64,000 nt of DNA from Oscillospiraceae bacterium (GTDB lineage Bacteria > Bacillota > Clostridia > Oscillospirales > CAG-272), in assembly GCA_015064735.1 (NCBI GenBank), contig SVRP01000010.1:1-64000 (forward strand), in the 5' to 3' direction. The position numbers were made by a program, and so were the translations under genes. Positions 9,825-18,266 of the stretch are shown here, in pieces; position 1 is the stretch's first letter, and each line of letters begins with the position of its first letter. Below the pieces are notes generated by a model, which was not told the DNA's origin, did not search any database, and saw only the letters and a program-made list of their open reading frames with translations.

Positions 9825-10961
9825 ATGATTAAAAAATTTTCAAAATTCATCTCTATCCTTTCGTTACTTGCAATTCTTCTTTCTTCCTCTATCATAGATA
9901 ACGACCGCGCAGCAAGCGACTCGCAAAATATTTTACCCGTCGGCTCCTACTCCTTTGACGGTCCGTCCTTCACCGAAAACAACGATACGGAACAGACAAA
10001 CAAAAGTCTTAACGTAACAACCGATTATAAAGATTTGAAGCTCTACGTGGGTGGAATGCCCTTCGGGGTAAAATTTCTCACTAAAGGTATAGTGGTTTGC
10101 GGCTTTTCAGACTGTAAAGGAAAAGTAAATCCCGCGAAGACCGCGGGAATACGTCCCGGAGATATTATAACCGAAATAAACGGCAAAGAAATAAAGAGTG
10201 TCTCTGAGCTTAACGGGGCGGTATACGGTGAAAAAGCGCTGACCGTAAAATACACTCGAAACGGACAGGAGCTTATGGCTGATATCTGTCCTATTTACCT
10301 TGAAACCGAGTGTAGGTATACCTTGGGAATCGCCGTTAGAGACAGCGGAGCGGGAATAGGAACGGTTACCTTTATTTGTCCCAAAACACGCGCGTTTGGC
10401 GGTCTCGGGCACGGAATTTGCGAAAGCACGGGAGAGCTTATTCCAATGGATCGCGGCTCGGTTGTCGATGTGAAGATCAACGGTATAGTAAAGGGGCTAT
10501 CGGGCGCGCCCGGAGAGGTCAAGGGCTATTTCAACGGTGGCAAGACGGGGAGCCTTATCGGAAATTCCCATTGCGGTGTCTGGGGAATTTTTGCGGAGCT
10601 TCCGTCTGAGCTTCACGGCAGACCGGTTTCTATCGGAACGAGAGACACGGTAAGGAGCGGTAAAGCGTATATCTATACCATGCTTGACGGAGAAAAGGTT
10701 GAACGGTACGAAATAGAGATATCGGATATTCAAAGAAACGCACAAGGCAACAAATGCTTTGTTGTAAGGATCACCGATAAAAAGCTGCTTTCAAAAACCG
10801 GTGGAATTATTCAAGGAATGTCAGGATCACCGATAATACAGAACGGAAAGCTTGTGGGGGCTGTGACGCACGTGCTCATCAACGATCCCACCACGGGGTA
10901 TGGAATATTTATCGAAAATATGTTAAATGCGGCAAATATTCCTATGGCAAAGGCATCATAA
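9825..10961 (+). CDS. spoIVB: SpoIVB serine peptidase (S55), intact copy
   Basis: SpoIVB is made in the forespore and cleaves SpoIVFA to trigger sigma-K in the mother cell. Here: an N-terminal membrane/signal segment (residues ~8-25), a PDZ domain starting LYVGGMPFGVKFLTKGIVV, and the peptidase domain with GGLGHGI (His), RITD (probable Asp) and GMSGSPI (Ser). 378 residues. The ATG at 9825 follows AGGAG by 7 bases; upstream in-frame codons lack a ribosome site. spo0A, its usual neighbour, is absent. Two further copies of its last 44-47 codons lie at 14004 and 18124, and the gene heads an array of sugar-metabolism units. The serine codon is TCA here but AGT/AGC in the detached copies. Confidence 0.93.
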   Translation: MIKKFSKFISILSLLAILLSSSIIDNDRAASDSQNILPVGSYSFDGPSFTENNDTEQTNKSLNVTTDYKDLKLYVGGMPFGVKFLTKGIVVCGFSDCKGKVNPAKTAGIRPGDIITEINGKEIKSVSELNGAVYGEKALTVKYTRNGQELMADICPIYLETECRYTLGIAVRDSGAGIGTVTFICPKTRAFGGLGHGICESTGELIPMDRGSVVDVKINGIVKGLSGAPGEVKGYFNGGKTGSLIGNSHCGVWGIFAELPSELHGRPVSIGTRDTVRSGKAYIYTMLDGEKVERYEIEISDIQRNAQGNKCFVVRITDKKLLSKTGGIIQGMSGSPIIQNGKLVGAVTHVLINDPTTGYGIFIENMLNAANIPMAKAS

Positions 10962-10981
10962 ATGCAGAATTGAATAAAAAT

Positions 10982-11030
10982 GTTGTCCCTTACGGAACGT
11001 TCACAATGAGTGGGTTCAATAAGGGACAAC
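10982..11030. repeat. Type-1 hairpin after spoIVB, containing the inverted 23-bp array end
   Basis: Inverted arms GTTGTCCCTTA (10982-10992) and TAAGGGACAAC (11020-11030), 20 bp after the spoIVB stop. Bases 11008-11030 (GAGTG...TCAA...GGACAAC) match, in inverted orientation, the 23-bp sequences at 13980-14002 and 18100-18122 (20 of 23 each). It also contains TGAGTGG (11007-11013), the bases found at the joint in the detached spoIVB copy at 14004. It may act as the spoIVB terminator, but the T run is poor (AGTCTTTTGT). A partial relative, GTTGTCCCTATT...ACACACT, lies at 11071. Confidence 0.8.
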
Positions 11031-11168
11031 AGTCTTTTGTCCGAAAATATTAAATTTTGTGTGTAAATGTGTTGTCCCTATTATAACACACTACTCTTCC
11101 TTGGACGATTCCCATTGCACACTTTTAGATATTTCACTTAAAATATTTTAACACAAATTGCTTTCGTC

Positions 11169-11891
11169 TTATTGGTATCGATATTCTCTTGGTGACAGAC
11201 CCATAACCGACTTGAATTTTTTAGAAAAATATACGTAATCCAAATATCCGCATTTTTCGGCAATCTCGGATAAGGATAAATTATCTTGGTAAATATCAAT
11301 CAAATAGCAAGCGTGCTTGATACGAATTTCGGTCAGAAATTCGTTTGGCGTTTTCCCCGTTATCTTCTTAAAGCAAGAACGTATATAATCTTCGGAATAA
11401 CCGCTTTTTGACAGAATCAATGTAAGATCAATCTGTGTATCAAAAGCATTTTGAGAAATCTCATCAGTTATTTTCTTAACACTCCTTTGCATTGCGGAAT
11501 CCAACTCAAACCGCTGCATAAGAAAACAAACGTATGCTGTACACAAAGATGCAAGATAGGTATCGTTTCCATAACGGTTTTCATATATAATCTCTGCAAG
11601 CATCTTTCCTTCTTGTGTCTCGTTATCCTCAAAGGACTTCACGGTGTCAAACCGAAAATATGCCTCAAAATCCCCCTCAATAGAAATATTCTTAAATCCA
11701 TTTTTCGATATTGAGCCGTGCTTTATATTCGGGGGAACGATCACGATCGTTCCGTCTTCAAACGGAACATCGCCAAGCTCAGTGCGCATATATCCTTTTC
11801 CCTCGAGATACAACATAATTTCATAATTCTTATGTGCATGCATCGGATATCGAACTACTCCGTCCGGCGTACAATTAATTTTAAAGTTCAT
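11169..11891 (-). CDS. AraC-family regulator with cupin sensor (GH5 unit)
   Basis: 240 residues: an N-terminal cupin-like sugar-binding half (HAHKNYEIMLYLEGKG, DGTIVIVPPNIKHGS) and a C-terminal double helix-turn-helix (KSGYSEDYIRSCFKKITGKTPNEFL ... SLSEIAEKCGYLDYVYFSKKFKSVMGLSPREYR). It is divergent from the GH5 gene at 12017 with a 125-bp shared control region. It most likely senses a glycan product and activates the GH5-transporter pair. Confidence 0.88.
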   Translation of the reverse strand: MNFKINCTPDGVVRYPMHAHKNYEIMLYLEGKGYMRTELGDVPFEDGTIVIVPPNIKHGSISKNGFKNISIEGDFEAYFRFDTVKSFEDNETQEGKMLAEIIYENRYGNDTYLASLCTAYVCFLMQRFELDSAMQRSVKKITDEISQNAFDTQIDLTLILSKSGYSEDYIRSCFKKITGKTPNEFLTEIRIKHACYLIDIYQDNLSLSEIAEKCGYLDYVYFSKKFKSVMGLSPREYRYQ

Positions 11892-12016
11892 AATATCACC
11901 CCGCTTTCATTATACCATAAATCTATCTTTTGTACAAGTTTCTTCTTGAATAATCATATTTGTTATCTTTGACACTGTGATATAATTTGTATATTACGAT
12001 CACAAGGGAGATAATT

Positions 12017-16284: not shown

Positions 16285-18084
16285 ATGTTTAAAAGCAAAA
16301 TAAAAACAAAAAACGGCAATCCATGCTTATACATTGACGGTCAACCGACAACCGCTATGGCTTACACCACATATTTTGAGGAGCGAAGCTGCTGTGCGGA
16401 TTTTGCAAGAATAGGCTGCCGTTTGTTTTTTGTAAATACATCCTTCACCTCGCTTCCAATAAACAGCTACGCCACAGGCTTTTCTCCATTTCGCGTTGGC
16501 ATCTTTGAAAATATTAACACCCCTGATTACTCGGAGTTTGAGCGAGAGGTGCATAGGATCCTTAAGGCTTGCCCCGATGCTATAATTTTCCCAAGAATCT
16601 ACGTGAGTATGCCAAAATGGTGGGTTGACACTCACCTTGGAGAATGCGTTCTTACCAAAAAGGGCGGCTACCGTGAGATGCTGTTCTCAACGAGTTTCCG
16701 TCAGGACGGCGCAAAGCTTTTGGAGGAGTTTATAAATCACGTCAAAGCCTCGGATTACGCTTACAGCATCGGAGGGTGGCAGATTTGTGGCGGACAAACT
16801 CAGGAGTGGTTTCACCATGACCTATTCGGCAGTCTTTGCCAAGAGGCTGCCTCCCACTACACACGATGGTTAAAGGAAAAATACGGAGATAGCGAGGCCA
16901 CACTTCCCTCTCCTTGCGATTTCATATATCAAGAGAAAGGCGAAAACGCAAACGAAAACGCAATCAGGTATTCTCTCTTTTGCAACGAGGAAGTCGCAAA
17001 AACCGTCGAGCATTTTGCAAAAACGATTAAGGAAAGCACCGAGCATTCGCAAATCGTGGGAACATTTTACGGCTATTCGTTTGAATCCTGCGGTACCGTG
17101 CTTTTTGGCTCTCATGCACTCAGATGTCTGATAGATTCGCCAAATGTAGATTTCATTTCCTCACCAAACGCCTATCGGGGAAACAGAAGCTTTGGCATCG
17201 ACTGGGTAGATATGATACCCGTGGATTCACTCAGGCTCCACGGAAAGCTGTGCTTCATTGAGTGTGACGTAAGAACGTATTTGACAAAAGCCATCCAGGA
17301 TGTACGCCCCGGTGAATACGCCGATGATATGTACCGCACAGGTGACGGAGCCACGGTGTGGGTTGGTCCGCCTACGGTCGATCTTTCATGCGAGGCGCTG
17401 AGAAAATGCTTTGCCCATCAAATAACGAAGGGATCGGCAATATGGTGGTTTGATATGTGGGGCGGATGGTATGACGATCCGACCATAATGAAAGAATTGC
17501 TTGATATGAAGCATATTTATGACAACGGTCTTATAAAACCGTGCAAATCTCCATTAAATGAGGTCGTATTTTTCGCAGACGAGCGCGGATATGCACGGCT
17601 GTTCAATTCTTCACCACAGCTGAAAGGAATACACACAACGCGCCTTGCAATGGGCAACACCGGGGTTCCCTACGACATATTTATGGCGGAGGATGCCGAA
17701 CACATTCTCGCAAATTACAAGGCGGCGATCTTCCCTATGCCCGTAGCATCGGATGCGGGAAGGCGAGCGATGAGGCTTTGCGAGAAGATAGGGATTCCCT
17801 ATCTTACGGCAACCGCCGACCGTTACGAGCTGACCGTCGACGAATTGCGTGAATTTTACAAAGCCTACGGAATACATTTTTATACCGAAGAAAAGAACGT
17901 TGTCTATGTAGGGAACGGCTATATTGGACTTCATTCCGCAGTTGGAGGAACGAAACGTTTGCATTTGCCTCACACAGCTAACGTTTCATCGATATTCGGT
18001 GCAGAATTTTCCACACAAAATACCGACTTAATCGTATTTGAACTGAAAGAAAATGCAACCGCCCTTTTCGCTATTTCTCCATAA
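16285..18084 (+). CDS. Putative TIM-barrel glycoside hydrolase, GH42/GH35-like clan A
   Basis: The 599-residue cytosolic protein resembles beta-galactosidase-like TIM barrels: [12 protein letters not shown] at the start, [29 protein letters not shown] with a possible acid/base Glu, and [12 protein letters not shown] with a possible nucleophile Glu. A Trp-rich stretch ([16 protein letters not shown]) is followed by a Rossmann-like half. I cannot assign a CAZy family. Its place behind murQ suggests a MurNAc- or GlcNAc-containing glycoside. Start: two in-frame ATGs (16279, 16285); AAGGAG is only 2 bases from the first and 8 from the second. Confidence 0.6.
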
Positions 18085-18099
18085 ATTATTCTAAAATTT

Positions 18100-18122
18100 G
18101 TTGTCCTTTATTGACCACACTC
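18100..18122 (+). repeat. 23-bp array right end, copy C
   Basis: Reads GTTGTCCTTT, then ATTGACCACACTC, 15 bp after the stop of the glycosidase gene. It differs from copy B at two positions. The detached spoIVB 3' end starts one base further on with TGAGCGG. Confidence 0.85.
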
Positions 18123-18123
18123 C

Positions 18124-18266
18124 TGAGCGGCTCCCCCATCCTCCAAAACGGCAAGATAGTCGGCGCGGTAACGCACGTTTTAATCAATGATCCGACCACA
18201 GGATACGGTATTTTTATTGAAAATATGCTGAACGACGCGCAAATGCCAGAGGCGCGGGCATCGTAA
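18124..18266 (+). pseudogene. spoIVB: Detached spoIVB 3' end, copy C (47 codons with stop)
   Basis: In frame from 18126 it reads [18 protein letters not shown] and on to [15 protein letters not shown]. It has the same length as the intact gene's tail and only two substitutions in the first 35 residues (I6L, L11I), with many silent base changes. It has no start. It begins at the same codon as copy B, after the same 23-bp sequence, so two independent events used the same joint. A type-2 palindrome follows within 5 bp. Confidence 0.92.

Follow-up and report, generated by a model that had tools for sequence, protein, structure and literature searches.

The window analyzed here, a stretch of 64,000 nucleotides (positions 1 to 64,000 of contig SVRP01000010.1 in assembly GCA_015064735.1 of an Oscillospiraceae bacterium), contains an intact copy of the sporulation gene spoIVB followed by two units of cargo genes and two detached spoIVB 3' ends. 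The assembly, coded G000 below, comprises 2.1 Mb in 31 contigs and is 95% complete; the window corresponds to its contig C24. A first-pass annotation, made from the sequence alone, had interpreted the locus as a stack of insertions into spoIVB. The features are as follows.

9825-10961, plus strand: intact spoIVB, head of the stack, with PDZ and S55 serine peptidase domains (Pfam PF05580 Peptidase_S55, E 2.9e-74)
10818-10820, plus strand: ATG codon beside the catalytic serine codon (10821-10823); its TG is the putative crossover core, attB (base counts and alignment with 9lnf)
10821-10961, plus strand: present spoIVB 3' end (B'), which may have been supplied by the newest event (nearest relatives in other genomes; comparison of G006 and G021)
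10981-11031, no strand: palindrome P.P', attP-like and also a terminator-like hairpin (counts of arm-like sites, pair counts and arm identities)
11070-11094, plus strand: third arm copy, which resembles P' reversed (arm-site comparison)
11169-11891, minus strand: unit 1 cargo, AraC-family regulator (PF00165/PF12833)
11987-13108, plus strand: unit 1 cargo, GH5 glycosidase (PF00150, E 2.9e-34)
13108-13974, plus strand: unit 1 cargo, EamA-type transporter (PF00892, E 3.6e-07)
13979-14002, plus strand: P arm closing unit 1, half of a putative attR (motif matches)
14003-14137, plus strand: first detached spoIVB 3' end (B'), head of unit 2, in frame and without a 5' part
14176-14220, plus strand: terminator-like hairpin of the first detached end, of the same type as that at 18271-18311
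14325-15473, plus strand: unit 2 cargo, helix-turn-helix protein with a BadF/BcrA-type ATPase/kinase domain (PF01869, PF01381)
15464-16282, plus strand: unit 2 cargo, MurQ-like SIS-domain protein (SIS-domain families including PF13580)
16279-18084, plus strand: unit 2 cargo, 601-amino acid protein without a Pfam family, earlier labeled a glycosidase
18099-18122, plus strand: P arm closing unit 2 (motif matches)
18123-18266, plus strand: second detached spoIVB 3' end, in frame and without a 5' part
18271-18311, plus strand: terminator-like hairpin of the second detached end

The top match of the intact gene product in the PDB was 9lnf, which is SpoIVB. The detached ends downstream of the intact gene were found as first described, and both are preceded by the same arm of about 24 bp, P (TGTTGTCCYTWYTTGACCACACTC). 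Over 35 shared codons the intact gene differed from the first detached end at 19 of 105 nucleotides and at no amino acid, which reproduced the earlier count exactly, and from the second at 30 nucleotides and two amino acids; the two detached ends differed from each other at 23 nucleotides and two amino acids. The recurrent end motif was also recovered. In its 22-bp form, with at most three mismatches, it matched three times in the window vs. never in 100 shuffles, and the 23-bp form at the same tolerance matched three times in the entire 2.1-Mb assembly, all in the window. The third of these copies (11008-11031, minus strand) is one half of the palindrome behind the intact gene. Neither unit contained a recombinase by Pfam search, in agreement with the first-pass annotation. 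Pfam also upheld the labels AraC, GH5, transporter and kinase, and it placed the protein labeled MurQ in SIS-domain families; the label glycosidase for the 601-amino acid protein found no Pfam counterpart.

Fifty-nine genomes were searched with the last 53 residues of SpoIVB (tblastn). Detached ends were present in 11 of 30 genomes of the genus (G000, G001, G004, G005, G013, G016, G017, G018, G026, G028, and G029), and in eight of these (not G001, G017, or G029) the detached end shared a contig with the intact gene. Of the G028 end, a short piece where the contig stops is all that is seen, and that of G017 is decayed yet retains its arm. Beyond the genus, detached ends were found in G031 and in G051, which belongs to another family; arrays occurred in at least two families (f1 and f17). 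The genome RGIG4151 (G059) has, on one contig, an intact spoIVB followed by seven detached ends over about 28 kb, one of which is truncated and lacks its joint. Matches with less than 45% identity were excluded from the comparisons of spoIVB ends, and seven tblastn matches without a usable joint or start were excluded from the unit, linkage, base-count, arm-site and relatedness comparisons. The G029 end, which lies at a contig start, was kept from its first base in the unit and linkage tests and excluded from base counts, arm sites and relatedness. G075, which has the same sequence as G063, was retained in the unit comparisons and the contig-end table and excluded from the linkage, base-count, arm-site and identity tests.

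A degenerate pattern of the joint matched 27 stretches in public genome contigs (genome_contigs). By title all 27 are metagenome-assembled genomes of Clostridia, Oscillospiraceae or Lachnospiraceae, and 22 titles name herbivore colon, cecum, rectum, or feces. The motif ran into a spoIVB end in 26 of the stretches; among these, similarity decays within a few codons in L094, L088 contains a frameshift and L107 stops at the end of its contig. The remaining one, L093, corresponds to the palindrome downstream of an intact spoIVB. The link between fragments and spoIVB thus held outside the window, the same joint with different cargo was seen in many genomes, as had been anticipated, and the closest relatives of the three ends in the window were not each other. 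Plasmid records contained three matches to spoIVB ends, two of them annotated as spoIVB and one unannotated. A viral origin was considered and rejected; the end motif had no exact match in viral_contigs, and one scaffold of a phage collection has a variant joint.

The base that precedes TG served to locate the exchange. It was A in all 53 intact spoIVB genes and, at 43 joints, G in 34 and C in nine; TG itself was present at 42 of these joints. Forty-four rows had been tabulated as joints, and one, the truncated G059 end, was removed because it has no joint. Joints fetched by DNA pattern had been selected for [CG]TG; all 16 of the joints reached by protein search alone (15 plus that of G017, which was examined separately and is outside the 43 and 44) read G- or C-TG. 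Because joints were listed from tblastn, strongly decayed ones such as that in G021 were missed. The P arm lies directly beside the spoIVB repeat at the 43 joints, many of which were fetched by that motif, and at G017. The codon after ATG encodes the catalytic serine, which aligned with SpoIVB Ser378 (Ala in 9lnf, an S378A structure), and this codon varies freely between AGC and TCN. The exchange appears to map to the TG of the Met codon just before the serine codon. The first-pass annotation had placed the insertion at the serine codon; its coordinates (10818 and 14004) fall exactly on the boundary between A and TG, and its wording was two bases off. Serine recombinases need little beyond a matching central dinucleotide between the arms, a requirement that a TG core beside a freely varying serine codon fits.

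Displacement of an old end was visible in a pair of sister species, G006 and G021, whose flanks are 93.6% identical and whose match resumes downstream at 94%. The 3' end and terminator of the intact G006 gene match a remnant that stands behind a 4.1-kb cassette in G021, directly after a decayed P arm, and the intact G021 gene has a 3' end and terminator different from those of G006. On this alignment, an old 3' end has been pushed, terminator included, to the far side of a cassette. Part of the interior of the G021 remnant is deleted, and a Doc-type gene occupies the equivalent position in G006; G006 is therefore not a perfectly empty site, and the earlier expectation of an uninterrupted spoIVB where a unit is absent was borne out at a locus that is imperfectly clean. 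The G021 cassette resembles a G063 unit with a glycyl-radical enzyme and its radical-SAM activase.

Both units of the window have relatives elsewhere. Positions 236-3185 of unit 1 aligned with part of a G059 unit at 78%, and positions 174-4120 of unit 2 aligned with part of a G018 unit at 73%. In each case the similarity runs exactly to the joint and the neighbors differ. The G059 and G018 units carry extra genes at the left, as if two cassettes had fused. Cargo was surveyed in 91 open reading frames (at least 110 amino acids) from 32 closed cassettes. Among the Pfam matches listed, which cover 25 of 81 families, there were 14 AraC-type regulators, five each of glycyl-radical enzymes, radical-SAM proteins and EamA transporters, and four each of alcohol dehydrogenases and Fic/Doc proteins. 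A similar protein of about 125 amino acids recurs in or beside cassettes (L039, L040, L041, L046, L056, L111, L113, L121, L122, and L126); it is a Fic/Doc protein in L040, the one tested, often has by eye a small Phd-like reading frame upstream, and is reminiscent of the toxin-antitoxin cassettes of superintegrons. After the last detached end of the window (18316-26432) are sugar-acid-type genes, labeled by eye as a short-chain dehydrogenase, a glycosidase, an enolase-superfamily protein, an AraC regulator and a beta-galactosidase. No further joint follows within the window, and the distal boundary of its stack is unmarked.

Recombinases were detected on a separate element. The joint led to G077 (CANQVH010000003.1), where three tandem genes for large serine recombinases, R1-R3 (557, 570, and 536 amino acids, with Resolvase, Recombinase and zinc-ribbon domains in Pfam), run directly into the joint and a spoIVB 3' end. 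Homology searches used R1 in 295 genomes of the order and R3 in 391 genomes of the class, both samples of larger groups, and turned up close relatives in G327, G555 and G674; a phage collection contained one further scaffold, MT836038.1. All four triplets found in this way end in the same joint and spoIVB 3' end, and their recombinases are 45-57% identical to those of G077 (R1 of MT836038.1 matched only over 147-549). spoIVB was absent from the 12-14 kb seen at five loci with weaker R1 homologs, a subset of the matches, and from three loci with weaker R3 homologs; G131 was in both sets. Genes for conjugation (the coupling protein of a type IV secretion system and a TraG P-loop protein) are beside attL in G327 and G077, the two elements examined. 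G327, G555, G674 and G077 have no clear spoIVB 3' end other than the detached one (G077 has one more match, E 0.2), and in all four the 5' part is on another contig and stops exactly after ATG. The arm that follows the split ATG, P', reads GAGTGA(G/T)...AGGGACAACA. As read from these contigs, the element splits spoIVB after ATG in four of the four genomes where both halves could be sought.

spo0A, the usual neighbor of spoIVB, follows the detached end in G327 as it follows the intact gene in G047 and G057. It was rejected as a general distal marker; among the loci tested it was beside the detached end in G327 alone, and among 20 further loci it followed intact spoIVB in G057 and G047. All five elements (L117, L151, L219, L220, and L238) encode a homolog of an 88-amino acid protein upstream of R1, which is a DUF6870 protein in the two tested and a candidate directionality or accessory factor. 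MT836038.1 (L238) was deposited as 'Bacteriophage sp.' yet carries the triple recombinases and the spoIVB joint, so that it may represent part of an integrative element and not a phage. Six kilobases inside attL of the G327 element (L232, 8444-14347) is a gene for a 1967-amino acid, adhesin- or pilin-like protein with 14 SpaA/prealbumin-like repeats.

The arms P and P' together form a near-palindromic sequence that is the predicted attP, and the palindrome behind the spoIVB of the window (10981-11031) appears to be of the same kind. Arm-like sites were found behind 23 of 96 spoIVB 3' ends vs. one of 96 shuffles. Alignment of 18 palindromes showed good conservation of the outer pairs, with changes in both members of pairs 11/41, 12/40 and 15/37. 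The P' arms of G016, G072 and G078 are identical to the attL arm of G555 and G674 at 24 of 24 nucleotides; that of the window matches at 19 of 24. In many units the third arm copy (11070-11094 in the window) is at a near-constant distance of about 63 nucleotides behind the second arm of the palindrome. The analysis supports the stacked insertions proposed in the first-pass annotation and changes that proposal in placing the core at TG, in assigning the recombinases to a separate element that splits spoIVB, and in likening the hairpin to the attP of that element.

We interpret spoIVB as the attachment site of triple-serine-recombinase elements and the window as a cassette stack at that site, and we give this reading a probability of roughly 0.7. 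The stack itself, in our reading, consists of non-autonomous satellites, each of which restores spoIVB on entering it. We observed the joints, the arrays, one displaced end, the ends of the elements and the split genes; the supply of recombinase in trans, the order of events and the route of repair are what we infer from them. Let B.B' denote intact spoIVB, and B.P' and P.B' the two ends of an element. Elements that encode three large serine recombinases in tandem (integrative and conjugative elements, ICEs, in the two examined) would cut at the TG of the spoIVB Met codon, joining the 5' part of the gene to P' and P to the 3' part. Cargo cassettes free of recombinases would use the same site in the relatives of the window. 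Such a cassette would carry a spoIVB 3' end at its head and P joined to a spoIVB 3' end at its right. Being headed by a 3' end, it would leave a whole spoIVB on insertion and push the previous end downstream, and repeated insertion would build a stack in which the last in is the first out. A P.B' circle that recombines with B.B' would yield B.B' and P.B', with the gene restored and the old end displaced; the site would be regenerated each time because the reaction returns one P.B' and one B.B'. Recombination of P.B' with B.P' would yield B.B' and then P.P', repairing a split gene, and this product corresponds to the layout of the first unit of the window. The pair P.B' and B.B' is a putative substrate pair, and R1-R3 are candidates for the proteins that would act on it.

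A wider proposal, which we offer tentatively and consider somewhat improbable as a whole, is a two-layer system of parasites. An ICE would split spoIVB at the active site, and satellites that carry a replacement 3' end would insert at no cost, renew the attachment site and pile up into a bank of metabolic cassettes moved by the ICE recombinases. spoIVB is a forespore gene, so excision of the skin type, confined to the mother cell, could not rebuild it without loss of the element from the spore line.

Several results weigh against the interpretation of the window as a satellite stack. Leading 3' ends with homologous cargo were 0.746 identical (n = 61) vs. a background of 0.735 (n = 2799), and cargo identity correlated little with the identity of the leading end (rho 0.13, p 0.34). 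Pairs whose cargo was at least 84% identical had a lead identity of 0.782 (n = 17) vs. 0.732 (n = 44; p 0.008), the pairs being non-independent. These values suggest only weakly that leading 3' ends and their cargo move together; of the unit first proposed (new 3' end, hairpin, cargo and closing motif), the stacking was supported and the linkage of 3' end to cargo only to this slight degree. Ends within a genome were somewhat more alike (0.790, n = 64) than ends in different genomes (0.735, n = 4401). No close R1 homolog was found in 50 genomes searched other than G077 and G327 (best match 42%, partial). The window's own genome, 5% of which may be missing, yielded no helper, its R1 homologs being at most 42% identical over part of the protein. 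In plasmids the best match to R1 was 40% identical. The two ends of each splitting element are on separate contigs. In the palindrome the inner pairs are poor (19/33 in four of 18 and 25/27 in two of 18) and the 3-nucleotide core is variable; it may therefore not be a working attP and may now serve merely as a terminator. Contigs end less than 2 kb downstream of spoIVB in 11 of 39 cases and upstream in three of 39, in a table made by hand from 39 intact genes (without G031, G051, G055, G060, G066, G076, and other order-level genomes); this clustering fits mixed populations and also plain repeats. A 299-amino acid resolvase-domain protein of the window's genome (L076; G000:C31:164398-165267) is 42% identical to the N-terminal part of R1 and may be a large serine recombinase in truncated form.

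Homologous recombination between repeated spoIVB 3' ends could have built or reshuffled the stack, with site-specific events rare and long ago. The poor linkage of leading ends to cargo and the greater likeness of ends within a genome would suit this explanation, as would cassettes that look fused with the joint between them lost (G018.2o and G059.6o). We consider it unlikely, since the joints start at the same base beside an arm unrelated to spoIVB, the same type of arm ends the serine-recombinase elements, and arrays occur in both f1 and f17. An equally doubtful alternative is that the cassettes derive from recombinase-bearing elements that have since decayed, with nothing mobile at present. 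The lack of a close recombinase in array genomes and the degenerate joints or truncated ends in G004, G017, G018, G021 and G059 are consistent with such decay. Against it, none of the 91 cargo reading frames of the 32 closed cassettes contained a serine recombinase module or resembled R1-R3 or the nine recombinase-domain proteins of the window's genome (E at most 1e-3); recombinase triplets occurred just in single elements of other species and not in stacks. The same cassette is also found at different places in different species, and contigs end downstream of spoIVB as mixed populations or repeats would cause. An integron-like array, in which a resident chromosomal recombinase recognizes hairpins and captures cassettes, is very improbable; mixed metabolic cargo with Fic/Doc-type genes and folded sites behind spoIVB recall one, but the joint matches the ends of serine-recombinase elements instead, and no IntI-type integrase is next to an attI. 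The candidates for a resident integrase in the assembly, three matches to tyrosine recombinases and six to resolvase domains, are all on contigs other than that of the window.

Composites of staphylococcal cassette chromosome (SCC and SCCmec) at the 3' end of rlmH (orfX) resemble the window as stacked serine-recombinase islands that keep their target whole, and members without recombinases exist; their repeat is much shorter, and the gene and the recombinase set are others than those here. SCC is mentioned in passages of PMC3146451 and PMC5595907. The yin element in yabG is also among the systems closest in kind. The ssrA islands of Dehalococcoides, as the relevant passages describe them, likewise stack in tandem at a single conserved gene and have metabolic cargo and serine recombinases; every island is flanked by a duplicate of the 3' end of that gene, next to which is a short motif (PMC3146451). 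Tandem units bounded by 3' ends and the motif beside the repeat were both found at spoIVB. The integration module is present in 16 of 31 ssrA islands in that account, and others therefore lack it; the stacks at spoIVB had no recombinase module. The ssrA target is a transfer-messenger RNA gene with a 20-bp repeat, whereas here the target is a protein gene, of which some 135 bp are replaced starting at the catalytic serine, and the recombinase element, found just in other species, splits the gene.

The gin element in gerE of Bacillus cereus, in the passages on it, is like the spoIVB element in being a non-phage element that has three serine recombinase genes and splits a sporulation gene (PMC5595907). 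It differs in its target and in having girA and girB in an operon with girC apart, whereas the three genes of the spoIVB element are in tandem; two spoIVB elements also have conjugation genes. The recombinase element thus splits its gene as sporulation gene-intervening elements do, in four of four genomes, whereas the lineage of the window keeps spoIVB whole. Streptococcal triplet ICEs are likewise conjugative and have three serine recombinase genes in tandem at one end; they insert in mutT, traG or hsdM with repeats of 2-8 bp and disrupt the gene, and the passages on them describe no patched satellites (PMC4701971). The triplet (with domains tested in G077) and conjugation genes (in G327 and G077) place the spoIVB element near these ICEs; the units of the window have no triplet. 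An open-access full-text search, judged by titles and the starts of abstracts, gave no report of spoIVB as an integration site among the matches listed.

The codon before the catalytic serine of spoIVB would be a new hot spot for islands in a protein-coding sporulation gene. The one site appears to have two uses, in that a recombinase-bearing element splits the gene there and cassettes restore it. The recombinase triplet and its candidate sites are named here and can be tested directly. For gut Clostridia, the P arm joined to a spoIVB 3' end may provide a sequence handle for cassettes of carbohydrate metabolism and glycyl-radical enzymes.

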